64,000 nt of DNA, from the NCBI GenBank assembly GCA_902797965.1, contig CADBUY010000001.1, positions 1-64,000 on the forward strand, written 5' to 3'. Shown piece by piece: positions 4,304 to 45,853 of this stretch; the first letter of the stretch is position 1, and each line of letters starts with the position of its first letter. A program made the translations under genes and the position numbers. The notes beneath the pieces are model-generated. The model was not told where the DNA came from and did no database searches. It was given only the letters and a program-made list of their open reading frames with translations. The DNA is from an uncultured bacterium. Lineage in GTDB: Bacteria; Cyanobacteriota; Vampirovibrionia; Gastranaerophilales; Gastranaerophilaceae.

Positions 4304-4304
4304 T

Positions 4305-7090: not shown

Positions 7091-8389
7091 TTGATTTATA
7101 AGTTATTAAATAAACAAAAGGAATTTATAGAAATTCCGCATAATAATGCTCTTGATGTTGCTGTTTATCAGGGTGGTTACGGAAGTGGTAAAACGTGGTG
7201 CGGTTCACTTTTAGGAATACTTCTTGCAATGAAATACCCCGGATGCAAAGGCTTAGTCGGCGCTAAAGAATATGAACTTGTCAGAAAAACTACTCTTGTT
7301 GCGTATTTGGAACATCTGGATGACTTTGGCTTTGTCCAGGAAAAAGATTTTACATACAACAAAATTGATAAAATAATAAAGTTCTCTAATGGCTCAGAAA
7401 TTTTGTTTACAGCCCTTGATGATCCGGAAAAATTCAAATCCTTAAACCTGCACTGGGCAGAAATTGAAGAAGCCTCACAAATCTCTGATTCTTCTTTTAA
7501 ACAACTTTTAGGCCGTCTTAGGAATACATTTAGAGGTAAAAACTGGGTTGACTTTAGATACAGGCTTTTTGGACATACAAATCCCCAAAGTGACAAAGGA
7601 TGGATTTGGCAACGGTTTGTTGAACATTCAAAGGAAAATTACAGGCTGATAATTGCTCCTACAACTAACAATATTTATTTGCCCTCTCATTTTGTGCAGT
7701 CTTTGAAAGAGAGTTTTGATGAAGAATACTACAGAATTAATGTTCTGGGTGAATTTGGAAATTATTCTTCCGGACTTGTGGTAAAAGGATTTGACGAAGA
7801 AAATAAATTGAATTTAAAATATAATCCATTTTTACCCCTGCATCTTACCTGCGATTTTAATGTTGACCCTATGTGTTGGGCAATTGCGCATAAAGATAGA
7901 GAAGATGTGTATTTTATTGATGAAATTGTTCTTGAAAATACTTCAACACGCCAATGTATAGAAGAATTTATAAGACGTTATCCTGCTCATAAGTCAGAGA
8001 TTATTATAAATGGTGATGCTTCAGGTGACAACAGAAGTACCCAAAGCGAGTACACGAACTATGCAATCATAAAAAATGCGCTTAAAGAATATGGTTACAA
8101 AGATGTTAAATTCAGGCTTAGAAATTATAATCCTCCTGTTATGAATCGAATTTCTGCTTTTAATGCCAGAATTAAAAACTCCAAAGGGGAAAGGCATTTA
8201 TTTGTTGACCCTAGAAGATGCAAATGGATTTTATATAACATCTATAACCTGTCTTTTAAAGAAGGAACAAGTATTGTGGACGTTCCGACACATAATCAGA
8301 TTAAATCGGATAGAGAAGCAAAGTTTCTTGAACATCCTTTTGATGCTGTGAGCTACCTTGTGGAATATTACTGGAGGATTAAATCTTAG
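7091..8389 (+). CDS. Phage terminase large subunit
   Basis: 432 residues from a TTG start with GGAGG at 7081-7085. The N-terminal ATPase domain shows a Walker A GGYGSGKT (28-35) and a Walker B followed by catalytic acid, HWAEIEEAS (121-129). The C-terminal RNase H-like nuclease shows the acidic residues in LTCDFNVDP (about 255), INGDASGD and FLEHPFDAVSYL (about 420). It would drive ATP-dependent DNA packaging and cut the concatemer. Length is normal for the family. The usual downstream partner, the portal, is absent: host-like genes begin about 200 bases later. It is separated from the tail block by a terminator and a hairpin array, so it needs its own promoter. Confidence 0.92.
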   Translation: MIYKLLNKQKEFIEIPHNNALDVAVYQGGYGSGKTWCGSLLGILLAMKYPGCKGLVGAKEYELVRKTTLVAYLEHLDDFGFVQEKDFTYNKIDKIIKFSNGSEILFTALDDPEKFKSLNLHWAEIEEASQISDSSFKQLLGRLRNTFRGKNWVDFRYRLFGHTNPQSDKGWIWQRFVEHSKENYRLIIAPTTNNIYLPSHFVQSLKESFDEEYYRINVLGEFGNYSSGLVVKGFDEENKLNLKYNPFLPLHLTCDFNVDPMCWAIAHKDREDVYFIDEIVLENTSTRQCIEEFIRRYPAHKSEIIINGDASGDNRSTQSEYTNYAIIKNALKEYGYKDVKFRLRNYNPPVMNRISAFNARIKNSKGERHLFVDPRRCKWILYNIYNLSFKEGTSIVDVPTHNQIKSDREAKFLEHPFDAVSYLVEYYWRIKS

Positions 8390-16197: not shown

Positions 16198-18645
16198 TTA
16201 TCGGGAATGTATATTAAGCTGTGTATATTTTTTCTTTGAGGAATTGTAGGTGAAAATTTTGTAATTCTTATTGTTAACGCATATTTTAATAGAATTATTG
16301 ATATCCGTTCTTAAAATTTTTGAACTTCTAAGTGTTTCAATCGTGAAAATTGACGGGTGTCCAAACTTGTTTTCACCTGTCGAAATAACGGAATATTCAG
16401 GATTAATAAACTTTGCCAAATCTCTGTTAATAACTCCGGATGCACCATGGTGTCCTACTTTTAGAACTGTTACGTTTTGTGGAATATTCGGTTTTAATTC
16501 GTTAAGAGTTTTTATTCCTGCATCACCAGTGAACAGCATAGTAAAATCATTGTATTTTACTAAGGTTATTATTGAACTCTCGTTATCACCAATGCCTGCA
16601 ATATCTTTCAAGATAAAGTTGGTAATTTTCACCCCTGATTTATCATAGACTATTTGACCGTTTTCGGCTTCTATAATTTCTGTATTCCGTTTGTGAGCAG
16701 ACGCAAGAATTGTTTTAGAAGAAGCAGATGTGTCATTTAAGTTATTAACATATACTTTACCGACATTAAGCGTATTTATCAAATCTGCCGCACCGCCGGA
16801 GTGGTCATTATCAAAGTGTGTAACAATTATTGTATCGAGGTTTTTAATTCCCTTGTCTTTAAAATACTTAAGAATAAAGACCTCTGCCTGAGATTTTCCG
16901 CCCTCAAACCCGCTTTTGCCTGTATCAATCATCATATATTTATTATCAGGAGTTTTAATCATAAATGCATCAGCATTACCGACATCAAAAGCCGTAATTT
17001 CAAGATTGTGATTAGGAATTGAAATCGTAGAAACAAGTAAAACAGATACCAATATCGGAATTGAAAAACTGAAGTATTTACCGAATTTTTCTCTGATATC
17101 TTTATCAAACAGGTATGTCACATTTATAAGCGTTAAGTAGTAAATCAGTATTTGAAATGGATTTGGATGTGTTGTCTGAAGCGTTGAGTTAGGAAGATTT
17201 CCCCAAAAGTCAGATATATTAACTAAAATTGTAATCAGTGGACTAAGAATAAAGTCAAAAACTCGGCAGATATAATAAGCCAGGTTAAATGGCAAATGAA
17301 CAAATAAAATCGTTAAAACAGAGCTTATAAAACCGCCAAAGCTGATTACATAAAGAATAGGAACGCTCATTATGTTTGCAAAAACCGAATAAATGCTGAT
17401 ATTGTTAAAATAAAAAATCTGAATGGGAATAACCCATAATTGAGCAATAACAGGAACTGATACGCTTCCTATAACCCAGTTAACAAATCTGTGCTTGCTT
17501 TTAATCAGGTATGGTGTCATTACAAGCAAGCCAAAAGTTACAACAAAAGAAAGCTGAAAACCGACATCATTAATATACATAGGGTTATAAATAAGCATCA
17601 GAAACGCAACAAATGATAAAAGCGAAATGCTGTGAGCATCTCTGTCAACAAGTTTTCCGATAAGAACAAACAAGAGCATTAAAGCTGCTCTTATTACAGA
17701 AGCGCCAAGACCTGTCATAAAAACGTAGGTTATAACTGCAAGAATACAAATACCTATGTTAATTCTAAAAGGAACTCTGCAAAAATTAAGCAGAAAGAAG
17801 AAAAATGAATAAATAAAAGCAACGTTCATTCCAGAAGCTGCAAGTATATGCAATAATCCTGAATTTACAAAAGATTGTTTAATATTTTCAGGCGGAGAAA
17901 CTGCATCATCTCCAAATACAATTCCTCCAAGAATTTCAAGATTTGGAGATTTTATGTAATTCCTGTGAACGCTCATTACCACATCTCTTGCATTATTTAT
18001 CTTTTGCAGGGTTCTTTCTTTAAAAGTCTTATTAACAGGAAGTTTTTCATAGCAAGGTATATCCAAATCTTTCATTGAATATGGATTTCTGCCGTAAAAT
18101 ACTGCATAAGTACCAAAATTTCTTAAATAGTATCCGTAATCAAACTGTGAGGGATTTCCTGCTTTAAAAGGGGTTGAAAGTCTGCCCCTGATTTTATACG
18201 AGTCATAGATGTTTAATTTATCTTTTGTGTTAAGTGTGACAAGGATTTTTTCATTATCAAAATTCTCTGTTTTGTTGTCGTACTCAATTTTATTTACCCC
18301 AAAGAAAAACCTTGTTTTATCACCGCCTTTTGTCTGCGGAACGGAAACAATTTTACCATAAATTGTTGAATTAACAGGGGCTAAGTTTAAAATCTCATCT
18401 GTTTCTTTGAGCCTTAAAGAAGTGTTAATTATTCCGAAATAAAAAATTAAAGCCCAGATTATAACAATTTTTAGTGGAAAATAATCCTTGATTACACAGA
18501 TAATAAGCAGTATTGTCAGGATAAATGCCGATAAAACAGAAAATCCGCTTAGTGTTCCAAACAACGCAAGAATATAAATTCCGACTGTTACAAGCATTAA
18601 AAAATTTTTATTGTGATAGATAGATGAACAAATATCCCTGAACAT
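16198..18645 (-). CDS. comEC: DNA-uptake channel protein ComEC/Rec2
   Basis: 815 residues. An N-terminal membrane and DUF4131-like part is followed by a competence domain with many helices (about 225-510, containing SGLLHILAASGMNVAF). A C-terminal metallo-beta-lactamase-like domain has THFDNDHSGG (609-618), FTGDAG and GHHGASG. The protein forms the inner-membrane channel for single-stranded DNA in natural transformation. No SD precedes ATG 18645, but TGG-TAAAAT ends 6 bases before it, suggesting a leaderless transcript. Together with the prepilin cluster it points to a type IV pilus-linked uptake system. Confidence 0.94.
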   Translation of the reverse strand: MFRDICSSIYHNKNFLMLVTVGIYILALFGTLSGFSVLSAFILTILLIICVIKDYFPLKIVIIWALIFYFGIINTSLRLKETDEILNLAPVNSTIYGKIVSVPQTKGGDKTRFFFGVNKIEYDNKTENFDNEKILVTLNTKDKLNIYDSYKIRGRLSTPFKAGNPSQFDYGYYLRNFGTYAVFYGRNPYSMKDLDIPCYEKLPVNKTFKERTLQKINNARDVVMSVHRNYIKSPNLEILGGIVFGDDAVSPPENIKQSFVNSGLLHILAASGMNVAFIYSFFFFLLNFCRVPFRINIGICILAVITYVFMTGLGASVIRAALMLLFVLIGKLVDRDAHSISLLSFVAFLMLIYNPMYINDVGFQLSFVVTFGLLVMTPYLIKSKHRFVNWVIGSVSVPVIAQLWVIPIQIFYFNNISIYSVFANIMSVPILYVISFGGFISSVLTILFVHLPFNLAYYICRVFDFILSPLITILVNISDFWGNLPNSTLQTTHPNPFQILIYYLTLINVTYLFDKDIREKFGKYFSFSIPILVSVLLVSTISIPNHNLEITAFDVGNADAFMIKTPDNKYMMIDTGKSGFEGGKSQAEVFILKYFKDKGIKNLDTIIVTHFDNDHSGGAADLINTLNVGKVYVNNLNDTSASSKTILASAHKRNTEIIEAENGQIVYDKSGVKITNFILKDIAGIGDNESSIITLVKYNDFTMLFTGDAGIKTLNELKPNIPQNVTVLKVGHHGASGVINRDLAKFINPEYSVISTGENKFGHPSIFTIETLRSSKILRTDINNSIKICVNNKNYKIFTYNSSKKKYTQLNIHSR

Positions 18646-23827: not shown

Positions 23828-23872
23828 AATGATTTTCCTTTCTATACGAATCTTTCTCTTAATTATATACCC

Positions 23873-23898
23873 ACACCTCCCATATTACAGGGAGGTGT
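23873..23898. other. Hairpin between two prepilin genes
   Basis: ACACCTCCC (23873-23881) pairs with GGGAGGTGT (23890-23898) across an 8-base loop. There is no U-run in the direction of transcription (reverse), so it may be an attenuator or mRNA-stability element rather than a full terminator. Confidence 0.5.
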
Positions 23899-23909
23899 GA
23901 TTAATTTTG

Positions 23910-26900
23910 CTACCACATTACAACAATAGCACCACCACCGCCTTGTGTCGGGTTTGCTATGGAATAATTTGCACTTTCTTCAGCGGTCATTCTACTTTCA
24001 TCAAAAACTTTTGCTCCCATGTAACTACCTTCGCCTGCGTTATCTTGATAGCAGTCAAAATTACCGCCTTTCTTGCCGTCGTAGCTTTTATCAAAAGGAG
24101 TACCAATTGGAGTTTCTGTCCAACTTCCTCCCGCTACGCTTCGCAATCTATAAGCCTGGAAGTGGTATGTGCCTTTTGGAACAACACAATAATCAGTAAA
24201 TCCTGTTCCTTGTCCGCCAAAAGCAATATTATTCAATTGAGCCATTCCGGTGTGGAATACTTTTGCCCAACGCGAAACCCTTGGAATAGGAGTCGGTTCC
24301 GGCTGCATAGGTTCCACAGAATGAGAAGTCACGCCTTTTCTCCAATGGAACGGATTATTCCAAGCTGTTGGAGTTATATTATAAGAACCACCCTTAGCTA
24401 CTCTTGAGAATACTTCCTGGTCTTCACTGTTGAAGCAAGTTATTTTAGCATTCAGACCATTTTCATATTCCGTTCTTTTGGTACTTAAATAATTAGCTAC
24501 ATTTAGCCCCTGATTTTCAGCTTCTCTTGATAATTCCATAATATCAAATACAATGCCGCCATGAGGGATAGTCATCTCACAGCGAGTTCCCATAGAAGAC
24601 ACCTGGAAGTGTTCGTGTTTCCCCGGAGAACCTGCCTGCCCCATACTATATGATTTCGTCCATGTTGTTGATGACTGGTCAATTCTCGGTTCCTGAGTAA
24701 TAACCTCTTCTGTTTTTTTAAGTTCATATCTGTTAGCTCTACTAAGTGGAGCACCGATTTTTGCATCCTTACCTTTTGCTGCAGAATCTTGATCCTCGCC
24801 TTTAAACGTTTGCCAAGCAAGATTTTCAGTGTAGATTCCGGGCGTATATGTTTTTTTACCGTCAATATACCCCACTACACCGCCTTTACCGCCTGTTGCA
24901 CCTACTGCAGAGCTATTTACGGAGTCTGTTGCTTGCTGAACTGTTATATAATGTTTATTGTCACCGAAATTAGGAATGTGATATGCCATAAACTTCTCAA
25001 CGTATTTACCGTCTTTAGCTCTTCCTATATGCTTTATTTGATTGCCAATCTCAACTGTTGACCATGACATACCACTATCAGCAGCCCCTGCATTTGGTAC
25101 AGTTCCTGGAGAACAAGTACTGCTGCTAAGATTCAAAGATGTACAAGCCACTAACTCATATCCGTTATTACCAACATTACCATATAAAGTACCTATATGC
25201 TTGACAAATGGGTATGTGATTCCTGAATATCTATTCTGTTCAGCAGTTCCATAGAAAAGAACATAGTCTAATTGCATATATTTTCCTGCACCGCCTGGAC
25301 CTCCGAGCTGCTTCACAGAATCATGTGTCTCATAAGGTTCAATAGCAAGTTTTTCTGGGTTTGCCGGATCATACCATCCATAATCCGAGTTTGTATAAAA
25401 TTCATGAGTTGACTCGGTATCTTCGGAATATCTGCAATAATCACTAATCTGCTTTAATGTTTCCGGTGTTTTATACTCATCATCAGAGTCAATTCTCCAG
25501 CCTTTCTTATCATCGTATACAGACGGGCGCGGTTTTATATCACCTGCACTGTTTAGCATTGCATCATAAACTTTTATTCTTTCAGCATATTCATCTTTTA
25601 AGGTATCTCTTTTATTAGCTAAATCTTTTAAATTAGTATCATTATCCCGTTGGGTATACTTTGATTTAATTTCTTTATCTTTTTTTGCTATTTTTTCATC
25701 CAGCTCGGTATTTTTCTTATCCATATCTTTTATTGCATTTGTCAGAGTTGTAACGCCAGATCTTGCATCAGATGCTGATTCACTGGCGTATGTTTTCATT
25801 TCTTCTAACAGTTTTTTATTTTCTGTACTCTGGCTCAAATCTTCAAATAATTCTGCTTCTGTAGCATTTCTTTTTTTTGTCGGATCAGCTTCATCATTAG
25901 CACTTCTCTTATGAATTTCATCATTATTCAACCATTTTTTTATAGATTGGAAGTTTTCTTTTATATCAGCCTGTTTTTTTGCTATATTGTTATATTGATC
26001 TCTATTCATAAAAGAATTTTTTTGATAAACTTCATATAAACCAAACTCTGGTGCATCCTTTCCTGCTGCAGTTGACAGTGCTATATAAGCCTCTCTGCGA
26101 CTGGCATAAGTTGAAGAAGAAGATGTTAGTGTTGAATATATATTTGGCATACTATCCATTGCACTTATATAATTGTTGAGTTTTTCTATGTATTTAGCAT
26201 AACCTGTTTTATTTGTTTTATTTTGTTCTATTTGCGCTTGATAACCAGCAATATCTTTTTTCAATTTATCTACCTGCTTATCATAAGCTTTATAGCTTTC
26301 ATCATATGTCTTTTGTGCATTATTATAATCAACTCGAGCATTCTTCATTTTTTCATACGCTTTGTCACTACCATGCACTAGTGCCGCACAAACAGCCCTT
26401 GCAGGAGATTTGTATGTGTATGTAGCATCAGCACCTTTGCTGCCTGAACCTGAAAATGCAGTTTGGATTATATGTTCATCTTTAATAGCAAACCTTATAT
26501 TGTCATCAGTCAAATCATAAGGCATATCCGTACTACCAAAATTACCCATTTTGTTAGCAAAAGTTATATTTCCTGTTTTTGCATAATTTACGGCATCAGC
26601 CATAGTAAAAGTTGAGCTTCGGCTATCATTATTTTGGGGCAGATATGCAGCATATTTTGTACCACCTGAACCTGCACTATACAAATCTATTTTATAGACT
26701 GAGGCATTTGGAACTTTATCCAAATGGCACGCATCTACCTCGCGGGATTTTAATATTCTAAATGAATTATAGGTTTCTTCAAGAAACATGCCGTTATCTA
26801 AAGCAATGCATCTGTATACGCCATGTTTTGCACTAACAGGAACAGGCTTACTCTTCTTGGTAATCAACGGTAACGCTGCAGCCATTGCAACAGCAAGCAC

Positions 26901-26957
26901 CGTAAATAATATCATTATTTCAACTAAAGAAAAACCACGTTTTGTTTGATTGTTCAT
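23910..26957 (-). CDS. Giant prepilin-like protein: Gly-rich fold with inserted coiled coil
   Basis: 1015 residues, ATG with AGGAG upstream. Leader MNNQTKRG then FSLVEIMILFTVLAVAMAA (class III signal, cleavage after Gly8). A Cys-containing module follows (HGVYRC, 45-50), then VYKIDLYSAGSGG (87-99). This looks like the first strand of the glycine-rich folds (compare Gly_rich_2-type domains) found at tips of phage fibres and adhesins. A charged coiled coil occupies about 198-468. A long Gly-rich body resumes after it (GGPGGAGK, GATGGKGG, GQAGSPGK). The C-terminus is GGGGAIVVMW. Probably a surface-exposed, adhesin-like minor pilin with a stalk. The glycine-rich assignment is by pattern. Confidence 0.78.
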   Translation of the reverse strand: MNNQTKRGFSLVEIMILFTVLAVAMAAALPLITKKSKPVPVSAKHGVYRCIALDNGMFLEETYNSFRILKSREVDACHLDKVPNASVYKIDLYSAGSGGTKYAAYLPQNNDSRSSTFTMADAVNYAKTGNITFANKMGNFGSTDMPYDLTDDNIRFAIKDEHIIQTAFSGSGSKGADATYTYKSPARAVCAALVHGSDKAYEKMKNARVDYNNAQKTYDESYKAYDKQVDKLKKDIAGYQAQIEQNKTNKTGYAKYIEKLNNYISAMDSMPNIYSTLTSSSSTYASRREAYIALSTAAGKDAPEFGLYEVYQKNSFMNRDQYNNIAKKQADIKENFQSIKKWLNNDEIHKRSANDEADPTKKRNATEAELFEDLSQSTENKKLLEEMKTYASESASDARSGVTTLTNAIKDMDKKNTELDEKIAKKDKEIKSKYTQRDNDTNLKDLANKRDTLKDEYAERIKVYDAMLNSAGDIKPRPSVYDDKKGWRIDSDDEYKTPETLKQISDYCRYSEDTESTHEFYTNSDYGWYDPANPEKLAIEPYETHDSVKQLGGPGGAGKYMQLDYVLFYGTAEQNRYSGITYPFVKHIGTLYGNVGNNGYELVACTSLNLSSSTCSPGTVPNAGAADSGMSWSTVEIGNQIKHIGRAKDGKYVEKFMAYHIPNFGDNKHYITVQQATDSVNSSAVGATGGKGGVVGYIDGKKTYTPGIYTENLAWQTFKGEDQDSAAKGKDAKIGAPLSRANRYELKKTEEVITQEPRIDQSSTTWTKSYSMGQAGSPGKHEHFQVSSMGTRCEMTIPHGGIVFDIMELSREAENQGLNVANYLSTKRTEYENGLNAKITCFNSEDQEVFSRVAKGGSYNITPTAWNNPFHWRKGVTSHSVEPMQPEPTPIPRVSRWAKVFHTGMAQLNNIAFGGQGTGFTDYCVVPKGTYHFQAYRLRSVAGGSWTETPIGTPFDKSYDGKKGGNFDCYQDNAGEGSYMGAKVFDESRMTAEESANYSIANPTQGGGGAIVVMW

Positions 26958-26976
26958 GTATCATTAACTCCTATTG

Positions 26977-27519
26977 CTACCATCCTATAAATACAGCCGG
27001 ACCTGAGTATTCATTGTCATTTTTTAAAATTGCATATATAGATGACGACGGATACGAAGACTGAAAGAAATTCATCAACTCGTATATATTTGAGTTGCCA
27101 CCTTCTTCGACTTGTTCTGTCTCATTTTGAAAATTCGATAATTCAGAACCGCTTATGGTAATTACATCTTCTCCTTTGTCACTGTTAAATTGCGGTTCCT
27201 GAGAATGATAGAACTTTCTTCCGTTTGTATTATGCAATGTATAAATTACAGCAAACGCTATTCCGGAGGGAGGAGTAAATGTACAATCATTTCCGGCATT
27301 TATCGGTTCACCCGCATAACTCCCATCAGAACGTTTTTGCTTCAACACTACGCCTTCATAATAGCACTCAAAATATCCATGTTTATTAGCCTGAATTTCT
27401 TTTTTCGGCTTTGCTGTTATTATTTTTGAAGTAGCAATAAAAAACATTGACATAACAAGCATTGACACCAATGCTTCTGCGAGAGAAAAGCCAAATTTTT
27501 TATTTTTTATATCTACCAT
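26977..27519 (-). CDS. Prepilin-like protein, short Gly-rich type
   Basis: 180 residues. Leader MVDIKNKKFG then FSLAEALVSMLVMSMFFIA (cleavage after Gly10). The module HGYFECYYEG matches the cysteine module of the two neighbours, and a second Cys follows in NDCTFTPPSG before the strand FAVIYTLHN. The C-terminal end GPAVFIGW parallels GGAIVVMW and GAIVIVW of the neighbours. It appears to be a reduced version lacking the Gly-rich body. The start overlaps the 3' end of the upstream pilin gene by 7 bases; the SD (GGAG) is spaced rather far, consistent with coupling. Confidence 0.8.
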   Translation of the reverse strand: MVDIKNKKFGFSLAEALVSMLVMSMFFIATSKIITAKPKKEIQANKHGYFECYYEGVVLKQKRSDGSYAGEPINAGNDCTFTPPSGIAFAVIYTLHNTNGRKFYHSQEPQFNSDKGEDVITISGSELSNFQNETEQVEEGGNSNIYELMNFFQSSYPSSSIYAILKNDNEYSGPAVFIGW

Positions 27520-29441
27520 ACAATTACTATTGCTCCATCTCTGCGTTTATCATCATTTGCAACACAGTAACTTTCTTTATAATCATGTTGCTTACCATCT
27601 GTTCCGATGTAATGCTTAGTAACATTTTTATACTGGACTTCACCAATTTCGCATTTTGCTTGTCCGTTCGCTTCAACATTTATTTTAAATTTTTTGAAAC
27701 GTTCACCGTTAGACGGTGATTGCCTATCTATTATTTTCAGAATGTTTTCACCATCTGCAATATTAATAAATGGATAGGCACCGGAACCTGCGTACCCCGG
27801 ACAAAAACCGGCTACATCACATTTATACAAACCGCCTCTGAAACCGGACTCATTTATCCTTGAGATATACTGATTAAAAACACTGTTATCGGCAGTCGCT
27901 GCAGCTTTTATTACCTCATTAGGATTTGGCATTATGCTGGATGTTAACGGCAACAATTGTCTTACTGATGAAAGTTCATTTGGCCTTGATTCTGCATGTA
28001 TTATATAGTTTCGTGGATTGTCAATACTGGTTGTCTTAGATACAATAGAATCTCTCGTATTTTCGCCTCTTGTATAACCGGGGAACAAATACAAATTTCC
28101 GTTAAGTTTAGTAAAAGTCATAGATTGCATGTCTCCCGGAGTTCCTGCTTTACCATACTCATAATCAACACCTAAAGCAGTATAAGACCACTTAAATGCA
28201 TCATTCTTATACGCCACTTCACCTGGTTTTGCTTTGTTTTCAGGACCGCCTAGATTTTTAAGACCATCACCCTGCTCTATGCCAAATTGTACCCCTTTGC
28301 TTCTGCGAGATTCGCTGAACGGAAAGTATGTATCTAGAAGGTCGTTAGTCAAAATAACATTTCCAACTTTTGCGCCGGCAGTATTTTCTAATGTATCCTG
28401 AGGTGTATTTTGAGGTGTATTTTCTGTAGGATCTTTTCCGTGAGTAAGTTGGACCACACCATTTGGCAACACTTTTTGATATGCATCTCCACCTGCCAAT
28501 TTGGCTTTCAAATGAAGATCAAAACGGCTTCCGTTACGTATTGTTGATTTAATTTGCATTCTGTCATCATTTGCTGTTATAAAAAATTCAGATTGCTGAT
28601 TAGCATCTATAGGAACTAATAATAAATTCCCTGGTAACATCTCTCTACCCATTGCAGAATCAGTCCCACCCTCATGAATATACCAGTAGCACATATCATT
28701 GGCTAATGCCAGACCTTCAACATTAGAGCGAGCATCCCAGTACTGACCATCAGGATGAGGATACGGACCTTTACAGTTGATTGTATTTTGTGAGCACGCA
28801 GTCTCGCAATTTATTCTTACGTCACCAGTCGTATTTTGAAAAGATATTTTTCTGGCAGCCAATCCGGCTCCGCCTCTTCGTACAGGTGACTTAATATTAC
28901 TAAATACTGCATACAAATAGCTTCCGTGGCTTACTTTATCATCTACCCATTCTTCAAATAGTTTAATAATTTCTTCTGACAGACTCATTACCCCAAGAAG
29001 TTCACTGTCTCCCATATTTGCACTAGCAATATCTTCCTTGAAAGTATTAAGATGAATAATACCGTTTCGTACAAAATTGCTATTGTCAATTGTATAACCA
29101 ACATGAGCAGGATCACGATAACCATCAGAACCTGCACCTATAGCAAAAATTTCATACTTATCCGCTGCAGGGACATTAAAAACACAGTAATCTTCATGTT
29201 CTGATTGTTTCGGCTGACAATCTTTTGGCCCTCTGTTATTTGCATGATACTGCATTAACACACCATTCTCATTATAATAACATTCAAAAATACCATGGCT
29301 CTTATAAATATTAGGGACTTTCAGCTTTTTTGGCCCGATAATCGGCACCATTGCAGCCGCAACTACCATAACTACAAGCATGGAAAGCAAAAGTTCAGCA
29401 ATAGTAAACCCTGAATACAGTTTAAATTTATTATTCTTCAT
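27513..29441 (-). CDS. Large prepilin-like protein with Cys/Gly-rich extracellular domain
   Basis: 642 residues; first gene of the five-gene cluster, ATG with AGAAG upstream. Leader MKNNKFKLYSG then FTIAELLLSMLVVMVVAAA (cleavage after Gly11). The module HGIFECYYNENGVLMQYH is followed by CVFNVPAADKYEIFAIGAG, again cysteine then a glycine-rich-fold strand. Later segments (GRGPKDC, CNGPYPHP-like Cys pairs and multiple short Gly turns) suggest disulfide stabilisation. The C-terminus is RRDGAIVIVW. Expected in the periplasm or on the surface after prepilin peptidase processing. Confidence 0.8.
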   Translation of the reverse strand: MKNNKFKLYSGFTIAELLLSMLVVMVVAAAMVPIIGPKKLKVPNIYKSHGIFECYYNENGVLMQYHANNRGPKDCQPKQSEHEDYCVFNVPAADKYEIFAIGAGSDGYRDPAHVGYTIDNSNFVRNGIIHLNTFKEDIASANMGDSELLGVMSLSEEIIKLFEEWVDDKVSHGSYLYAVFSNIKSPVRRGGAGLAARKISFQNTTGDVRINCETACSQNTINCKGPYPHPDGQYWDARSNVEGLALANDMCYWYIHEGGTDSAMGREMLPGNLLLVPIDANQQSEFFITANDDRMQIKSTIRNGSRFDLHLKAKLAGGDAYQKVLPNGVVQLTHGKDPTENTPQNTPQDTLENTAGAKVGNVILTNDLLDTYFPFSESRRSKGVQFGIEQGDGLKNLGGPENKAKPGEVAYKNDAFKWSYTALGVDYEYGKAGTPGDMQSMTFTKLNGNLYLFPGYTRGENTRDSIVSKTTSIDNPRNYIIHAESRPNELSSVRQLLPLTSSIMPNPNEVIKAAATADNSVFNQYISRINESGFRGGLYKCDVAGFCPGYAGSGAYPFINIADGENILKIIDRQSPSNGERFKKFKINVEANGQAKCEIGEVQYKNVTKHYIGTDGKQHDYKESYCVANDDKRRDGAIVIVW

Positions 29442-29681
29442 AGCGCTATCTTCTTTATTTTATCTGCAAATCCTGAGCAGATTTTACTCTTTTTAACAGA
29501 CCGAATAACCACCCCGAATTCAAAATATATATACTTTGTATACGAAATGTACATACTCGATTATATTCTATTATATCATGTTTTTTTACTCTTGTGAACC
29601 CCCCTAAATTTGATTTTAACAGTTTTTTAAGTTCATTTGAGTCTGATTAAAACGACTTTTTTGCGGCTTTTTTTGTTAACT

Positions 29682-31225: not shown

Positions 31226-32122
31226 ATGAGGAAATTTTTAATAGCCGGATTAATATTATCGTTGTGCAGTTTTCAATCTGTTTTTGCTGTTAGCGGAGGC
31301 TCAGTTGTAACTCTTGATAAAAATGAGATTGAAAAACCAACAATCGGTATTCAGGATAACACAAAAGAGCTGCAAGGTTCGCTTTTGATTAATAACTCTG
31401 AGGACATAGCAACACTTATTGACCAACAAAAAGAACACGATTTAAAGGATTTGGAAATCCTTTGGAAAGGTACTATTGAAAATAATCAGGTTATTGAATT
31501 TGCTTTAAAAAAACTTGCAACTCCTGAGTCGCAAAGAAGAATACATTCTTCTCTGATGGCAAAAACATTGTCAGCAGTCGTATCAGGTGCATCTTTTGTT
31601 CCAAGCATTATGGGTGCAAACTATGGTGTTCAAACAGCAGCCTTTTCGGCAGGCAGGCTTGCTCAGGGACTTCTTAACAAAGATAAATTACCAAAAGAAA
31701 CACCGCTTACTGATACCGAGTTAATTGAACTTGCCGGCATGGTGGAAAATCTGCAGGATGCTTTAATCAGCTCGTATTATAATTACAAAAATACTTTGAG
31801 TTTGCTGAAAGATACGCGTTCAAAGATGCTTTTATATAGTAAAAATTACTCAAATGCGCTTGACGGAAAAGATATTTTGGAAATTTCAATTTCTTTATCT
31901 CTATATGATTCAATGCGTTTGAGAGAATTTAATCTTGAACAGTCTGCAAAAAAATATCATATTCAACTCCAAAGGCTTGCAGGAAAAAAGGCAGTAGACT
32001 CTCTGGAATTATACCAATATGACTTTGATTCAATGTTATATAAAGATATTCAGCCTGACAAGGATAAAGATAATTCAAAATCCAAGTCGAAAACAAAGGG
32101 GGGAAATAATGCGAAAAAATAA
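31226..32122 (+). CDS. Exported helical protein, paralogue A
   Basis: 298 residues with a Sec signal (MRKFLIAGLILSLCSFQSVFA) cleaved near residue 22. The mature part is mostly helical: LEILWKGTIENNQVIEFALKK, a central Gly/Ala-rich segment (VVSGASFVPSIMGANYGVQT), and long helices to a Lys-rich tail. The helical, periplasmic layout resembles TolC-like or pilus-accessory proteins, but no family is assigned. The next gene encodes a clear paralogue and starts 14 bases before this stop. Confidence 0.75.
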   Translation: MRKFLIAGLILSLCSFQSVFAVSGGSVVTLDKNEIEKPTIGIQDNTKELQGSLLINNSEDIATLIDQQKEHDLKDLEILWKGTIENNQVIEFALKKLATPESQRRIHSSLMAKTLSAVVSGASFVPSIMGANYGVQTAAFSAGRLAQGLLNKDKLPKETPLTDTELIELAGMVENLQDALISSYYNYKNTLSLLKDTRSKMLLYSKNYSNALDGKDILEISISLSLYDSMRLREFNLEQSAKKYHIQLQRLAGKKAVDSLELYQYDFDSMLYKDIQPDKDKDNSKSKSKTKGGNNAKK

Positions 32123-33005
32123 AATCCTCTCATTAATAATTCTTTTAACAATGATGTTTGCGCCGTTTGTACAGGCGATTACGATTAATGATTTGAAATA
32201 CCCAAAAGACTCGTTTTACAGGTTTGGTACGACAGACACTCCTGAAAAAAAAGCAGATAAAAGTGAACAATTGGATTTATCTGTTCCTGAACTTGAAATT
32301 AAGCCTGTTGTTATAAAAGAAACAAAACCGGAATCTCTTACTTATGCAGATTTGAGCATTAAGAGTATGGCAATGGATGTATCAAAAGTTTTGGATATGG
32401 AATACAACGAAATGCTTGAGGATTTGTCTTTGCTTTGGCAGGGTGCCGCAATGAAAAGTGATACAATTAAATTTGCCATATATAAACTTTCCAACCCTGA
32501 TAAAGACAAGCCAGATGAGGGTGCGGTAAGAAAAGTATTATCTACTATTGCCGGTATGTCAACTTTTTTAGGTGCAGGTACCGGAAATCCTATTATGGCA
32601 AGTGCAGCTTTAATCGGAGGCAATACGCTGGGTATTATGTCACAGGATACAAAGGCTCTTAATTACAAATATACTCAGGTAACTGATGCTGATATGATTA
32701 TTCTTGTCAGAAAAGTTGATGAGCTTCAGCAGAAAGTTGTTGATTGCTATTACGATTATATGACCGCAAGATTATTGTATGATATGACTTCAAAAATGGT
32801 TAAAGAGCGTGAAATTAACTACAAAAAATCGCAATCTTTAGGCAAAGAAGTTGTTCTTGTCACAGATACTTTTTATCGAGAGGCGATTGATGAACATGTG
32901 AAAGCAAGAGGAACTTTCTTTGAAAAACGTTCTCAGCTTGAACAACTTGTCGGAAACGATATTTTCCGCCAGTTTGAAGAAGTGGTTGATAAAAGAAATA
33001 ATTAA
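32109..33005 (+). CDS. Exported helical protein, paralogue B
   Basis: 298 residues from ATG 32109 with a GGGGGGA SD inside the upstream gene; a longer in-frame start lacks support. Sec signal (KNKILSLIILLTMMFAPFVQA). It shares with paralogue A the order LSLLWQGAAM...FAIYKLSNP, a Gly-rich centre (STFLGAGTGNPIMASAALIG), TDADMIILVRKVDELQQKVV and YYDYMTARLL. A tandem duplication with translational coupling implies a heteromeric pair in the periplasm. Function unknown. Confidence 0.75.
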   Translation: MRKNKILSLIILLTMMFAPFVQAITINDLKYPKDSFYRFGTTDTPEKKADKSEQLDLSVPELEIKPVVIKETKPESLTYADLSIKSMAMDVSKVLDMEYNEMLEDLSLLWQGAAMKSDTIKFAIYKLSNPDKDKPDEGAVRKVLSTIAGMSTFLGAGTGNPIMASAALIGGNTLGIMSQDTKALNYKYTQVTDADMIILVRKVDELQQKVVDCYYDYMTARLLYDMTSKMVKEREINYKKSQSLGKEVVLVTDTFYREAIDEHVKARGTFFEKRSQLEQLVGNDIFRQFEEVVDKRNN

Positions 33006-39133: not shown

Positions 39134-40153
39134 CTACATATCAGTAACAACAATTTTTTTATCCGTAAATATTTTCTCAACATTTAAAATAGTATATGGT
39201 GTGTCATTATATATAAATTCCGCAAGAAAATATCCTTCTCCTGAGTTAACAATTTTATCTTCAGGAACTTCAAATAATTCGTTAATTTTATCAATAAGCA
39301 AGGCTATTTCCATATCATTACTTCTTACAATAATTACCGGTGTTTTTTCTTTTGTTTCTTTTGTTTCTTCTGTTTTGTCTGTTGAATTAAGATTCAGAAA
39401 TTTCTTAACATCAAGTACCGTTATGTAATCACCTCTAAGGTTCATTATTCCTGCAATAAAGTCAGGAGTCCCCGGAACTTTTGTAATTGTAGTATCTTTC
39501 ATTACTTCTTTCAGAACATCCAAAGAAATGCAATATAAATCATCATTTAGGTTAAAAGAGATTAGCTTTCGTCTTGCGTATAAATCGCCTGTTACCATGG
39601 ATAACCCTGTCTTTTCTGATATCTCTTTTGTTCTTTTCTGCATTATTTCCACAGAAGCAGGGTCACTCGGGAATAATGACGGAATGTCATAGCTTGGCAA
39701 ATTTATTGTACTCTTCAACAAATTTTCTATTGAATATAAGTTAATAATAAATATGGTATCCTGATCCTGTTTGTAAATTGAATCGATTATTGTTTTGTTA
39801 TCAACAAAAGGTATCGCATCAACATTAGCTGATTCAAACGGAGCAATTCCTATGATTTTATCGGTTATAATACCAAAAATTGTTTCATCCGTTTTTACAA
39901 TCAACAAGTCGCTGTTAACATTATATTTTGTAACATCTGTATCAAGGTAAAAACGAATATCGACAACATTTATAACAAAATTATTGTACTTTAAAAGCCC
40001 GACAATATTGTTTGGCAGCTTTTGCGGATAATCAAGCTTCGGAAGTTTCATTATCTCAAGAACACTTGCTGTATTAACGGCATACTTGCTATTTCCTAAC
40101 ATAAAATACAGGTGAGTATTCTTTTTTTGTTCAATATATCCGATTCCGTTCAT
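39134..40153 (-). CDS. Double CheW-domain scaffold protein
   Basis: 339 residues with two CheW-like SH3 domains: first about 13-155 (YFMLGNSKYAVNTASVLEIM, NNFVINVVDIRFYL), second about 195-335 (ISFNLNDDLYCISLDVLKEV, IAGIMNLRGDYITVLDVKKF). A Thr/Lys/Glu-rich insert lies within the second (KTEETKETKEKTP). CheW couples chemoreceptors to CheA. Two domains in one chain, instead of one, suggest cross-linking of receptor arrays or a CheV-like role. The start is coupled to the stop of the GGDEF gene (they share one base). Confidence 0.88.
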   Translation of the reverse strand: MNGIGYIEQKKNTHLYFMLGNSKYAVNTASVLEIMKLPKLDYPQKLPNNIVGLLKYNNFVINVVDIRFYLDTDVTKYNVNSDLLIVKTDETIFGIITDKIIGIAPFESANVDAIPFVDNKTIIDSIYKQDQDTIFIINLYSIENLLKSTINLPSYDIPSLFPSDPASVEIMQKRTKEISEKTGLSMVTGDLYARRKLISFNLNDDLYCISLDVLKEVMKDTTITKVPGTPDFIAGIMNLRGDYITVLDVKKFLNLNSTDKTEETKETKEKTPVIIVRSNDMEIALLIDKINELFEVPEDKIVNSGEGYFLAEFIYNDTPYTILNVEKIFTDKKIVVTDM

Positions 40154-41628
40154 TATATACTATCCTTTGCGTTATTGCCATCGTATACTATAACTCTGTT
40201 TCTTCCGCTTTCTTTTGCTGTATATAGAGCCTCATCTGCGGATTTTAACATCTCTGCAGAAGTTTTGAAGTCCTGAAAATTCATTGTTAACCCAATACTT
40301 ACGGTCACTTTTGCCTTTACTCCGTTATACTCAAAAGCATACTCTTCGACAGAACGTCTGAGGCGCTGAACAGGAATTAATGCTCCTTCAATATTAGTTT
40401 CAGGCATTATCATAACTAATTCTTCACCGCCATATCTGAACAGAAGATCCGTTTTTCTGAATGATGCTTTCATCAAATCAGATACTGTTTTAAGAACGTA
40501 ATCGCCATATTGGTGTCCATAAGTATCATTAACCTTTTTAAAGAAGTCAATATCGAGCATTGCCAGACTGAAATCTGCCGGATGTCGTTTGGTACGGTTA
40601 TATTCCTGCTCTAAACCAAGCTCAAATTGTCTTCTGTTATATAAACCGGTCAAGCCGTCTAATACCGACATAAATTCTTTTTCTGTATACTGATACTTCA
40701 TTTTAAATATTGCAAGCAGCTCGCTTATCATAATGTCAAAGTATCTGAATGAAGCATAATCAGCATCCGAACGTGTATAGAAACAAATTCCGCCTATAAG
40801 TTTTTTATCAAATACGAGCGGAATAATAATTTTTGACTTCATATCCGTAAATGTATAGTCAATTTCTTTACCCAATAAAATTCTAACTACCTCGAATTTT
40901 GTATCATTTATGGTTTTTATGTCAGCCAATTTTCTGAAAAAATCGTACTGAATATCTGATAAAAGATTTTTTGACAGATTTCTTCCTAACGTATCTATAT
41001 AAAGAATGTTCTCCGAATAATCATCAGGTGAAGCAAAATAAACTCCCGCAACAGTATATTCAACAAATGAACTTAACAAAGAGAATAATTTTTCAACCAG
41101 AATTCTTTCATAATTAAGAAAGTCGCTGAGATTTCTAAATTCATTTGCAAAAACAGATTTAAGCAGCAAGTCATTCAAAATTGTATTTAATTGTGACTGA
41201 GCCGAGTTATCAGGAGTAGCCTGAGAAGCTATCTTTTCTTTGTACTCATCTGATACAGGATATCTTCTTAATGTTGCATTAATATTAGATACCAGTTCAT
41301 CCATATCAATAGATTTAGATAAAAACAACTGAGCTCCGGCTTTTTTACCCCAAAAGCTGTCTATTTTCTTATCAAGAATAGTTAACAAAATTACCGGAAT
41401 TCTCTTTGTTTCTTCCTTACTCTTAACCAATCTGCACAACTGATATCCGTCAATTGCAGGCATCATAATATCAGATAAAACAAGATCAGGAACAAATTCA
41501 AACAGTTTTTTGTATGCTTCTGCTCCGTTTGTTGCAGTTTCTACTTCAAAACCATTACTTAAAAGCCCATCTTTTAAAAACTTTAATTGTGAATCGCTAT
41601 CTTCTACCAGTAAAATTTTTGCTGCCAT
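40153..41628 (-). CDS. Response regulator with diguanylate cyclase output
   Basis: 491 residues. Receiver domain (1-125) with acidic pair near 10-11 and phospho-acceptor Asp53 (LVLSDIMMPAIDGYQL). A GAF-like middle (about 150-310) follows, then GGDEF domain 325-485 with active site GGEEL (400-404) and an I-site RKTD (391-394) five residues upstream. The intact I-site implies c-di-GMP feedback. It lies upstream of the CheW scaffold and divergent from the MCP gene. Phosphorylation by the CheA hybrid would tie surface sensing to c-di-GMP. Confidence 0.93.
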   Translation of the reverse strand: MAAKILLVEDSDSQLKFLKDGLLSNGFEVETATNGAEAYKKLFEFVPDLVLSDIMMPAIDGYQLCRLVKSKEETKRIPVILLTILDKKIDSFWGKKAGAQLFLSKSIDMDELVSNINATLRRYPVSDEYKEKIASQATPDNSAQSQLNTILNDLLLKSVFANEFRNLSDFLNYERILVEKLFSLLSSFVEYTVAGVYFASPDDYSENILYIDTLGRNLSKNLLSDIQYDFFRKLADIKTINDTKFEVVRILLGKEIDYTFTDMKSKIIIPLVFDKKLIGGICFYTRSDADYASFRYFDIMISELLAIFKMKYQYTEKEFMSVLDGLTGLYNRRQFELGLEQEYNRTKRHPADFSLAMLDIDFFKKVNDTYGHQYGDYVLKTVSDLMKASFRKTDLLFRYGGEELVMIMPETNIEGALIPVQRLRRSVEEYAFEYNGVKAKVTVSIGLTMNFQDFKTSAEMLKSADEALYTAKESGRNRVIVYDGNNAKDSI

Positions 41629-41713
41629 CGTAATTGATATATTCCAATTTCTTAAAATTTAGTATAAAATAATTATATAATAAATGTTCAAAAAAAACTA
41701 TAGGAGAGAAGAA

Positions 41714-42760
41714 GTGGGTATAGAATGGAATTTAGGTCTAAGACAGAAGTTTAACATAAAGTGCGCAATAGATTTGGGCGTTTTTATTTTAACATGTGTT
41801 TTAATTGGCGTTTTTGCAAAAGCACAAAATATTGCTCCTTATGACACAGTTATATTTATCGCAATCATTGCAATTATTAATCTGTTGTCACAGTTTATTA
41901 CAAAACAGTGGATTGTAAAAATTATTAAAAAATCTCTTTCTGTTCAGTCTGAGTCTATATCTGCTACTACGGAAGATGTTTTGAACTCTGTTAACAACCA
42001 GAAAAGAAAATTTGAAGTAATATCAGCAAATAACAAAACAATGTCAGGATTGCTTGAAAAATTAAAAATTATATCAGAAGACTCTGTTGTTATGTCTAAA
42101 AACACAGAAAAACAAATTGACCAATCTATTAATTTTTCTCAGAAAGAACACGATTTTATCTCGGCTAATGTTGAAAAAATGTTAATCCTAAGACAAAAAA
42201 TTCAGATGATTGCTGAGCTTATTCTTGAACTTTCCGAGCACTCTCAGCAAATCGGAAATACAATAAGTGTAGTTGATGATATTGCGGAACAGACAAACAT
42301 GCTTGCCCTTAATGCTGCAGTAGAAGCTGCTCGTGCAGGCGAACATGGGAAAGGGTTTGCGGTTGTAGCAGGTGAAATCAGAAAGTTAGCTGATGAATCT
42401 AAACAGGCAATCACAAAAATCACATCTTTAACGAGTAACATTCAATACACTACTAACTCTACAGTCATGGCTACAGAAGAGGGAACAAAAGAAATCGAAT
42501 CTGTAGTTAAAGATATCAATACGCTTCTTAATGACTCAGAAACATTGTTAACACTAATAAAAGACATTATGGATTCTCTTGAGGGAATTAATAAAAACGC
42601 ACAAAAACAAAGTGACATAATTGAAAAATTAGGTTCAATGGACGAAGAACTGAATACTGCATCCGGAGATTTTATCCAATTTTTGGCAGCACATACAGAA
42701 AAAATATCTGCGTTGAACAATCTTACAGCCAGTATAAAGACTTCTGTCGAAGAAGATTAA
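41714..42760 (+). CDS. Methyl-accepting chemotaxis protein without sensory domain
   Basis: 348 residues from GTG 41714. AGGAG seven bases upstream and TATAAT at 41676-41681 support this over ATG 41684. Two adjacent membrane helices near the N-terminus ([33 protein letters not shown]) leave almost no periplasmic loop. A cytoplasmic four-helix bundle follows, with the highly conserved tip [20 protein letters not shown]. No ligand domain, so input may be membrane state, a partner protein or pilus contact, as for PilJ-like receptors. CheA follows 27 bases downstream. Confidence 0.9.
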
Positions 42761-42787
42761 TAACAGGTATAAACACCGGAATAAAAA

Positions 42788-45700
42788 ATGGATTTTTCAG
42801 ATAACGATAACAAAGAACTTATGCAACTCTTTCAAACAGAGAGCGAAGAGATTATAGAGAGGATTTTTACAAGCCTTTTTTCTTTAGAGAAAAAGCCTGA
42901 TAACAAAGAACTCACTACCGCTGTGTACAGGGATTTACACAGCCTTAAAGGTGCTGTCAGAATGGTCGGGTTCACAAATATCCAGTCCATTATTCACAAA
43001 ATGGAAGATATTTTTGACTTTATCAACGAGAAAAAAATGGCTCTGGACGCAAGTTCTATAAACGTAATTTCGCGTTCTTTGGAAATTGTATCTAAGTATT
43101 TGCAGGAGTCTATCAGAAATAATCGTGAAATAATAGATGATGATTTTAAATCAACCTTGTCTAACCTTGAATACATACATGATGTTGAACTTAATGACAA
43201 AGCAAACCCGCAGCATGCCGGTAGCGGCATACCTGGACTTGACATTCCGGGTTTGGATATCCCCGGACTTGATATCCCTGTAGTAAATATGCCTGATGTG
43301 GATTTGCCCAAGATTAGTGATTTTAATATCAGACAATCAATTAGTGAATCTGCTGAGACAAAATCAGACACATCAGATTTAACACAGTTTCAGGAAGAAA
43401 TTAACTTTGGTTTTAACAAATGTTTTGGCATCATTGACAGTATTGTTCCGGAAGAAGAGTCTCAAGACATTGTAATTTTAAAAGAAGAAGTTCAAAAAAT
43501 ATATAATTATTTCAAAAGCTCTGATTTATATGAAGTCAAATCTTCTCTGGAGAACGTTATTACAAAAATAGACTTTGTAATGAACGCAACTAACACTTTA
43601 ACCATAAGTGAAATACTGGAGTTGCGAAATGAACTTAGTTCTGCGGCTGCTAAATTTACGACTTCCTGTATAGCGTTTGAGCCAAAAGGATTTACTTTCT
43701 TTGATGTTGCTGAAAAGATTTCAATGCTTCAGGGAAGCAGCGTTTATACGGCAGAAATAAGAGATGATATCTTAAAATTAAAAGAAAATATTGATGACAC
43801 AAGCATTCTTGAAATCTTAAACACAATAATTGAGATACTGAATTTTATTGAAGAAAATTCTGTTCAGTTAGAAGAACAAATGGTTGCAACTTTGAAAAGC
43901 GGTATTGAATACTGTGCTTCACCAAATGAAAATGTTGACAGCGATTTGATTGTTCAGCAGCTTGAAATTATGAAACAATTGCTGGATTTGAGCTATAAGA
44001 AAGACACCGGTGTAACAGAGATTAAAAATCTTTCAACTCAATCTTCACAAGTAAATAAATCTTCGTCTTCAACTGAGATTAAAACGCTTCATGTCAATGC
44101 GCAAAAACTGGATTTACTCGTGAACCAGCTTGGTGAACTCATTATTACAAAAATTAAAACAGAAAAAAATATTGAAAAAATCGACAATATCAAAAATACA
44201 AATGAAAATTGTCAAAAGGATTTATTAAAAACATCAAATTATTTGAGATATTATAACCGTAAATATCTACAGTCTTCTAATTCAGAACAGTATACAGCAG
44301 CTTTTGTAAAGCAGGTATTTTCTTTGTTATCTGATATTACCCAGAATATTTCAAGAACAATTTATGACCTTAATTCTCTTTACAGAGCTTCAAAAGAAGA
44401 CGATATGAAAATGCGTTTAATTATAGATGAAATGGAATCTATGGTTAAAAATATTCGTGTTCTCCCTATCTCAACAGTATTCAATTCTTTCTCAAGAATG
44501 GTTCGTGACATTGCGACAGAAAAGGGCAAAGAAATTGATTTTGAGATTGAGGGAAAAGGCACCTGTGCCGACAAAAAGATTATAGAAGAAATAAAAACTC
44601 CTCTAATACATATTCTGAGAAATGCAATTGACCATGGTATTGAAACAAAAGACGAAAGAATATCCTGTGGCAAGAGTCCAATTGGTAAAATTATGTTATC
44701 TGCCCGTCAGGATGACAACAAGGTTATAATTGATGTTGCCGATGACGGTCGCGGATTTAATCTCGAAAAAATAAAAGACAGAGCGGTGTCAAGAGGCTTT
44801 TTAACAAAAGAAGATATTGAAAATATGACTGATGAAGCTATTATGAATATTATTTTCTGGCCGGGCTTTACGACAGGTGACTCAATTACAAGCATTTCAG
44901 GCAGGGGTATCGGTCTGGATGTTGTTAAAACAAAAATATCTCAGCTTAACGGTAAAGTTAAAGTAATCTCGGAATTCGGCAAAGGTAGCTGTGTTCACAT
45001 TGAAATTCCTGTTACATTGACTACTCTGAGAGTATTTCTAGTAAAAATTTCGGGACAAACTTTTGCTATACCGATTCAAGTAATCACAACATTTATCGTT
45101 AAAAAGCAAAACGAGATTAAAACAAATAACGGAGTTAGAACAATCGTATACAACGGAAACCTTCTTCCATTATATTACATGTCAGATATTCTTGGACTTG
45201 CCCCTGAAAAAAGAGGTGAAAAGGAAACTATTCTTATCATAGAATCTGATGAGAAAACAGTTGGTCTTGTTGTAGATAAACTGTTAGGCGATCAGGACAT
45301 TCTGCAAAAGAAACTTTCTGCACCTTTGTATAAGGTTAAAAACATTTCAGGAATTACAAACCTCGCATCAGGAGAGCTTTGTTTAATCCTCAATATGCAG
45401 GACATTTTGCACTACGACTTTAACAAAGCCGCAAGTTCTGCTGCGACACAAAAGCTGCTCCCTGCAGATGTTCTTTCTTACAAGAGAATTTTAATTCTTG
45501 ATGATTCAATCACAACTAGAACCATGGTTAAAAATATCTTATTAAATGCAGGTTATATGGTTGATGTTGTTTCTGAGGCGGAAGAAGCATTGGTTAAATT
45601 AAAAATGAACCACTACGATTTAATTATTAGCGATTTAACAATGCCAAAAATTGACGGATACGAGTTTATTGATAAATTAAAAACTGATGAAATGTATGCT

Positions 45701-45853
45701 GATATTCCCGTAATAATTATGAGTTCTATTCCTGAAAAAACAGCTATGGATAAACTCGGTCAAAATGTTGATTATTACATTACAAAAGACAACTTTAATC
45801 AGAACGCATTTATTGAGCAGATTAAGGCTCTTTTAACCAAATATCACGAATAA
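42788..45853 (+). CDS. cheA: CheA-type sensor histidine kinase with C-terminal receiver
   Basis: 1021 residues. Hpt domain with phospho-His51 (DLHSLKGAVRM). A Pro/Leu/Asp linker contains a short tandem repeat I-P-G-L-D (148-163). A long helical region follows, then dimerisation, the ATPase with N-box ILRNAIDHG (609-617), G1 ADDGRGF and G2 GRGIGLDVVK, a CheW-like domain, and a receiver with Asp949 (LIISDLTMPKIDGYEF). Only one Hpt is clear, unlike ChpA, which has many. It probably phosphorylates its own receiver and the REC-GGDEF protein. No free CheY, CheR or CheB is adjacent. Confidence 0.94.
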   Translation: MDFSDNDNKELMQLFQTESEEIIERIFTSLFSLEKKPDNKELTTAVYRDLHSLKGAVRMVGFTNIQSIIHKMEDIFDFINEKKMALDASSINVISRSLEIVSKYLQESIRNNREIIDDDFKSTLSNLEYIHDVELNDKANPQHAGSGIPGLDIPGLDIPGLDIPVVNMPDVDLPKISDFNIRQSISESAETKSDTSDLTQFQEEINFGFNKCFGIIDSIVPEEESQDIVILKEEVQKIYNYFKSSDLYEVKSSLENVITKIDFVMNATNTLTISEILELRNELSSAAAKFTTSCIAFEPKGFTFFDVAEKISMLQGSSVYTAEIRDDILKLKENIDDTSILEILNTIIEILNFIEENSVQLEEQMVATLKSGIEYCASPNENVDSDLIVQQLEIMKQLLDLSYKKDTGVTEIKNLSTQSSQVNKSSSSTEIKTLHVNAQKLDLLVNQLGELIITKIKTEKNIEKIDNIKNTNENCQKDLLKTSNYLRYYNRKYLQSSNSEQYTAAFVKQVFSLLSDITQNISRTIYDLNSLYRASKEDDMKMRLIIDEMESMVKNIRVLPISTVFNSFSRMVRDIATEKGKEIDFEIEGKGTCADKKIIEEIKTPLIHILRNAIDHGIETKDERISCGKSPIGKIMLSARQDDNKVIIDVADDGRGFNLEKIKDRAVSRGFLTKEDIENMTDEAIMNIIFWPGFTTGDSITSISGRGIGLDVVKTKISQLNGKVKVISEFGKGSCVHIEIPVTLTTLRVFLVKISGQTFAIPIQVITTFIVKKQNEIKTNNGVRTIVYNGNLLPLYYMSDILGLAPEKRGEKETILIIESDEKTVGLVVDKLLGDQDILQKKLSAPLYKVKNISGITNLASGELCLILNMQDILHYDFNKAASSAATQKLLPADVLSYKRILILDDSITTRTMVKNILLNAGYMVDVVSEAEEALVKLKMNHYDLIISDLTMPKIDGYEFIDKLKTDEMYADIPVIIMSSIPEKTAMDKLGQNVDYYITKDNFNQNAFIEQIKALLTKYHE

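Follow-up and report, generated by a model that had tools for sequence, protein, structure and literature searches.

In a 64,000-nucleotide stretch of DNA from an uncultured bacterium of the Gastranaerophilaceae (positions 1 to 64,000 of contig CADBUY010000001.1, assembly GCA_902797965.1; hereafter the window), three adjacent prepilin genes, which we call A, B and C, in our judgment rather probably encode modular type IV minor pilins whose head is a TNF-like, glycine-rich domain of the PF21722 superfamily and which probably serve as tip adhesins. The usual pilin head would in these proteins have been replaced, probably, by a domain related to the glycine-rich domains that occur in phage tail fibres and in an animal receptor, giving the fibre a grip at its tip. 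An earlier note on this stretch had picked out the three as neighbours; they are indeed found side by side, with 642, 180 and 1015 residues, but the cluster holds five prepilins, two further ones (D and E) following C.

Each of the three chains begins as a pilin. The class III signal that had been proposed for A, B and C is found in all of them, with a charged leader, a glycine directly before phenylalanine, and a glutamate at mature position 5. The corresponding profile, PF07963, scores B at 22.4 and C at 26.0 bits, above its cut-off, and A at 19.1 bits, just under it; this signal and weak coiled-coil noise were all that the window proteins gave in Pfam and NCBIfam scans. A type IV pilus machine is encoded in the genome: PilB, PilC and the secretin are grouped at about 251-254 kb of contig C1, while contig C2 has PilD and contig C3 a PilT-like ATPase. 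The combination of pilin signals with a prepilin peptidase makes it likely, judging from sequence, that A, B and C are exported and incorporated into a pilus.

Beyond the signal, the three proteins are tied together by a homologous module of constant order, in which an HGxxxC motif (SHGIFEC in A, H49-C54; KHGYFEC in B, H47-C52; KHGVYRC in C, H45-C50) is followed by CxFxPP and then by a strand. The cysteine motif and the strands quoted by the earlier note all lie where it placed them; the spacing it gave, 20-35 residues after the helix, was wrong, the HG standing about 14 residues past the hydrophobic stretch. Across the 23-24 homologs aligned for each type, the HG and both cysteines (C54/C86 in A, C52/C79 in B, C50/C77 in C) are invariant or nearly so, and the final residue is an invariant tryptophan in all three types. 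With the helix removed, hhalign aligns A with B at P 5e-11, A with C at 3e-15 and B with C at 4e-12. In the same test D and E, which have the pilin helix too, give no match to the module (P >0.04); as these are pairwise P values, the controls weigh more than the numbers themselves. Used as a lone query, A finds both C (E 9.5e-8) and B (E 2.7e-5) in the same genome. The likeness extends to the chain ends, where the last 70 residues of A and C agree at P 4e-8; the shared C-terminal end claimed for all three thus holds well for this pair and for the terminal tryptophan, but B agrees with A or C only weakly (P ~2e-3). Middle segments of A and C also correspond (P 1.4e-4 and 9e-4, the lowest of 180 controls being 0.007). 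Between these conserved parts the heads are large and highly variable among species, with inserts of up to hundreds of residues; the charged insert of C is thinly shared, with an alignment occupancy of 0.2-0.6 among homologs.

The connection to the Pfam family Gly_rich_2 (PF21722; curated cut-off 24.3 bits) comes from relatives of the window proteins. A second genus of the family has the A-B-C order and the same signatures in four species. Its B counterpart, of about 355 residues, matches PF21722 at 28.3 bits (E 2.2e-6) in one species and under the cut-off in another (E 6.6e-4), profile positions 4-98 falling on residues 80-174 and the match beginning at CxFxPP; its C counterpart reaches 27.1 bits (E 5e-6) in one species and lies just under the cut-off in another (E 8.9e-5), the best B and C scores coming from different species. 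At a locus in another member of the order (L086), three consecutive pilins all exceed the cut-off (E 3e-13, 4e-11 and 6e-8), two with the HG-Cys module and the third with a divergent form of it, and A aligns with these pilins at P 5e-13 with the helix removed. The pilins of locus L137 also exceed the cut-off, and there the stretch from FxPP to GGGGGG alone matches profile positions 7-36 (E 1e-7). Prepilin signal and PF21722 domain are seen directly in one protein in the second-genus counterparts and in these relatives. In window-type C the middle segment corresponds to the PF21722 regions found in second-genus C (P 1.3e-4) and in L086 (5.4e-5), the lowest of 180 controls again being 0.007, and the second half of A aligns with second-genus A at P 1e-13 (reversed control, 0.6). 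In a tree, C of the window's own genus and the PF21722-bearing C of the second genus fall into one clade (support 97/90); this tree was built on the first 115 mature residues, has few columns and many unsupported forks elsewhere, and does not settle the orthology of A or of B.

Structure prediction bears on the same question. AlphaFold2 models were obtained for mature window A (19 sequences) and for the compact C ortholog of locus L079 (15 sequences), which stands in for window C. The unrelated or disordered folds that would have refuted the earlier note were not seen: both models are mostly folded and beta-rich, with mean predicted local distance difference test scores of 72.7 for A and 78.2 for the C ortholog. 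Each model starts with a helix of some 20 residues (ending at 19-24), passes through a low-confidence stretch (22-34) and then has strands from residue 39 up to the chain end; a separate pilin head is seen in neither. In VIA structure comparison the best match of A is the glycine-rich domain of human ALK (PDB 7ls0; Z 6.0, root-mean-square deviation (rmsd) 3.9, 125 residues aligned, model 38-631), followed by TNFs at Z 2.9-3.5, among which TNF-alpha and TNF-beta score about 3.5; an ALK-type domain had already been guessed before this comparison. The C ortholog best matches a tail-tip chain of mycobacteriophage Bxb1 (Z 8.5, rmsd 4.8, 159 of 230 aligned, model 37-637), the next row falling to Z 3.6; ALK is not among the rows listed, and in such lists a missing family is not evidence. 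The alignments start at residues 37-38. The models suggest a TNF-like jelly-roll for A and C, and we infer the fold of B.

Several results weigh against this picture. The VIA scores of 6.0-8.5 are moderate and within a range that unmatched models often reach; Foldseek gave no significant match for the A or C-ortholog model against the PDB or viral models, the viral list including several proteins named glycine-rich, none of them significant; and no text could be found to confirm that the Bxb1 chain is a glycine-rich protein. Because the Z scores overlap the chance range and Foldseek is null, the fold assignment rests on the agreement of the VIA matches with the sequence bridge described above. 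Window A, B and C have no PF21722 match in Pfam scans; they are divergent relatives of the family, not members by the curated cut-off. Their glycine content is also ordinary over the whole chain (9.2% in A, 7.9% in C), and these 8-9% compare with 39% in the glycine-rich domain of the phage protein Pam3 gp24 (PMC9608196); the very high glycine content that forms a lattice in ALK/LTK-type domains is absent from A and C, and B has no glycine-rich part. The many G-G-x-G turns reported for the larger two are confirmed for C, with five where 0.5 are expected and none of 2000 shuffles reaching that number, but not for A, which has one (p 0.38); B has none. The proposed union of pilin anchor and glycine-rich fold is supported by PF21722 in second-genus B and C and by ALK and a phage tail tip as best structural matches of the two models. 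It is less direct in the window, whose proteins have few glycines and no PF21722 match; for these the combination is supported only by way of homology and predicted fold.

Other searches added little. Sequence searches of the PDB with the window proteins and with profile A11 gave no matches or weak chance ones. Profile A6 hit a designed kelch-like protein and antibody linkers, which was not useful, and profile A7 the pilin helix only. A tblastn search of phages with a glycine-rich pilin found no match, probably owing to the low-complexity filter.

The cluster is conserved as a unit. A and B overlap by 7 nucleotides, B-C and D-E are separated by about 20 each and C-D by 82; because of these small gaps and the overlap, all on one strand, we read A-E as an operon. 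The C-D gap contains a perfect 10-bp inverted repeat (CACACCTCCC/GGGAGGTGTG, 23872-23899), with no T run on the transcribed strand, which may set the ratio of C to D expression. Within the genus, about 20 genomes keep the A-B-C order, mostly accompanied by D and E. The cluster itself is patchily distributed, being present in roughly 22 of the 58 genomes, some of which hold two or three copies, and B is missing at some loci (L051, L061). Relatives that have the cluster go under Candidatus Gastranaerophilales in their records, or under uncultured bacteria from collections that include the rumen. In genome G052, a pair of complete A-B-C-D-E clusters lies back to back, the two running in opposite directions (L047, 3712-15961), and an A-C pair lacking B lies elsewhere (L061); in another single genome three tandem D-type pilins stand between C and E (L055, 10034-12045).

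Across the order, PF21722 was detected in 71 of 383 sampled genomes, all of one family and spread over 15 of 51 genera. The window's own genus has it in none of its listed genomes, which we attribute to divergence of the sequences there. At the Gastranaerophilales loci read in this family, 22 of the 25 glycine-rich frames whose start is closed begin as pilins; among the PF21722 proteins of true Cyanobacteria, read at six loci, none do. Genomes G224 and G225 (genus g47) are among those of the family with more than 30 first-look PF21722 candidates, which suggests a large expansion of glycine-rich proteins. In the same phylum outside the order, an open frame of more than 20,000 residues carries repeated PF21722 matches (L118, G614:C1).

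Taken together, these data lead us to propose the following arrangement. The anchor of A, B and C would be that of a pilin, with its leader and a hydrophobic helix that is short here, and the head they carry would be a TNF-like jelly-roll whose core is built by the shared module and the last strand, with long variable loops emerging between short glycine motifs. Once cleaved by the prepilin peptidase, the three would probably form a tip complex of the pilus together with D and E, and their variable loops would there attach to a surface, or to a ligand, present in the animal gut. The tip position, the adhesion, the ligand and the joint assembly of A, B and C are what we infer; a tip position is favoured by the size of the proteins, their short helix and precedent (Streptococcus sanguinis PilB and PilC, PMC8179133, PMC9934059; TcpB, PMC9565799), and a conserved frame with very variable loops suggests, from the alignments, that the loops bind varied ligands. 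One could go further and picture an A:B:C heterotrimer of jelly-roll pilins at the tip, a cellular counterpart of the trimeric phage tail-fibre tip in which hypervariable loops set specificity, forming an adhesin system that spans a family of non-photosynthetic gut cyanobacteria; that extension is doubtful.

Three alternatives accept the proteins as pilins and dispute what the heads do. They may be structural minor pilins that prime assembly in the manner of GspHIJK, the large heads capping the fibre and the glycine-rich ancestry having no present binding role. Three to five minor prepilins per operon is, as general knowledge has it, the usual layout of a priming complex, B is small and plain, and we could identify no ligand-binding site; an essential primer, however, fits poorly with a cluster so patchy in the genus and at some loci lacking B, as it does with heads so large, so variable between species and so heavily interrupted by inserts, and we hold this explanation to be unlikely. 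The heads might instead bind DNA for a competence pilus. A ComEC-like gene (16198-18645, minus; LHILAASG, HFDNDHSGG) lies in the same window, and ComZ is a known modular pilin with a DNA-binding role (PMC8179133), but no ComEC motif stands beside the cluster at any other locus fetched and neither A nor C matches a DNA-binding domain. With the neighbourhood not conserved, the competence link through ComEC was dropped, and DNA uptake appears quite improbable. Just as improbable is the idea that the heads are a docking platform for a secreted protein and not surface binders themselves. TcpB is such a platform, a trimeric minor pilin of large size that bears the secreted TcpF at the tip of the pilus (PMC9565799), and TNF-like domains often trimerise, Pam3 gp24 being trimeric (PMC9608196), yet in the genomes read the operon showed no secreted gene conserved along with it.

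A last objection would deny the relationship altogether, taking the glycine-rich likeness as an artefact of composition and A and C as unrelated past the pilin helix. Glycine-rich sequence is prone to false matches, and Foldseek by itself found nothing significant. The shared module, however, is not glycine-rich; with the helix left out it still aligns at P values as low as 3e-15, D and E do not have it, the counterparts exceed a curated Pfam cut-off, and the window proteins have the unremarkable glycine content given above; an artefact is very improbable. Tip adhesins with a TNF-like head remain the reading we prefer. If it is true, a pilin head resembling those of phage fibres and of ALK occurs three times per operon across a gut lineage with few cultured members, provides a testable candidate for the attachment of Gastranaerophilales in animal guts, and adds a further case of one binding scaffold in phages, bacteria and animal receptors.

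The features of the cluster are listed in Table 1. Elsewhere in the window, prophage-like genes occupy the start of the contig (527-8389, plus), where by eye 7091-8389 resembles a terminase large subunit and 4290-6209 a tail-fibre protein. Two adjacent, similar-looking secreted proteins of 298 and 328 residues are encoded at 31226-33005 (plus), and about 10 kb from the pilins lie genes that by eye encode CheW, a response regulator with GGDEF, a chemoreceptor and a CheA hybrid (39134-45853), a chemosensory set that could control the pili.

Table 1. Features of the prepilin cluster, with positions in the window.
Feature	Extent	Position	Strand	Remarks
Prepilin A	642 residues	27513-29441	minus	Open reading frame (ORF); leader MKNNKFKLYSG, mature chain from F12; homologs in genus
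Prepilin B	180 residues	26977-27519	minus	ORF; 7-nucleotide overlap with A
Prepilin C	1015 residues	23910-26957	minus	ORF
Prepilin D	215 residues	23180-23827	minus	ORF; without shared module
Prepilin E	362 residues	22071-23159	minus	ORF; without shared module
Sigma-70-like promoter match		29570-29598	minus	11/12, TG before second hexamer; ~130 nucleotides upstream of A; consensus match only
A shared module	residues 49-104	29130-29297	minus	HGIFEC ... CVFNVP ... YEIFAIGAG; hhalign without helix
B shared module	residues 47-96	27232-27381	minus	hhalign B-C P 4e-12
C shared module	residues 45-99	26661-26825	minus	HGVYRC ... CHLDKVP ... YKIDLYSAGSGG; hhalign
A middle segment	residues 424-455	28077-28172	minus	VDYEYGKAGTPG...LYLFP; counterpart of similar segment in C
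C middle segment	residues 767-803	24549-24659	minus	TKSYSMGQAGSPG...MTIPHGG; matches PF21722 regions of relatives
C charged insert	~residues 199-470	25548-26363	minus	Probably coiled-coil; weak SMC/TrlF-type matches
A C-terminal strand	GAIVIVW	27516-27536	minus	Trp last; W642, G636 invariant
B C-terminal strand	VFIGW	26980-26994	minus	Invariant Trp last; homolog alignment
C C-terminal strand	GGGGAIVVMW	23913-23942	minus	G1006, G1009, W1015 invariant

Modular pilins are known and widespread (PMC8179133, PMC9934059), 264 architectures being counted in one source (PMC8179133), and in other systems large minor pilins of this kind serve as adhesins (PMC8179133, PMC9934059). The earlier claim that no pilin of this build has been described is accordingly too broad as regards pilins with foreign modules, but no report of this particular head came to light; the literature searched, which left out most subscription papers, contained no description of a glycine-rich pilin or of a Melainabacteria pilus adhesin. 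Type IV pilins have an alpha1 helix of about 50 residues and an antiparallel beta-sheet head, and the models of A and of the C ortholog show a helix that ends at 19-24, low confidence at 22-34 and strands from residue 39. Close in plan are PilB and PilC of S. sanguinis, which likewise join a class III signal to a foreign, probably binding, domain (PMC8179133, PMC9934059), occur as several per pilin gene cluster and are of a size that hints at the tip. Their modules are vWA and lectin domains, different from that of the window proteins, and are grafted by a linker onto a pilin head, whereas here the predicted jelly-roll would begin at about residue 38, after the short helix and low-confidence linker. 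The type IVb minor pilins CofB and TcpB are similar in very large size and tip function and differ as multi-domain trimers of another build that carry a secreted partner (PMC9565799).

The head itself is best compared with three glycine-rich systems. As regards PF21722 proteins, the window module matches the first strands of the domain; the window chains depart from them in being glycine-poor, in having very long loops and in not matching the model. ALK, the top VIA match of A, resembles it in that strands from both chain ends join in the domain, and differs in being part of an animal receptor kinase and in having a glycine-rich lattice, the moderate score indicating a fold resemblance at most. 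Pam3 gp24, a myocyanophage tail fibre that itself resembles ALK, is built of a helix, a TNF-like domain and loops of glycine motifs that end in a variable tip proposed to bind the receptor (PMC9608196). It is a phage baseplate protein, with 39% glycine in its domain, assembled as a homotrimer with a chaperone and lacking a pilin signal; by description, it shares with the arrangement proposed for the window proteins an N-terminal helix, a TNF-like domain and loops between glycine motifs (PMC9608196).

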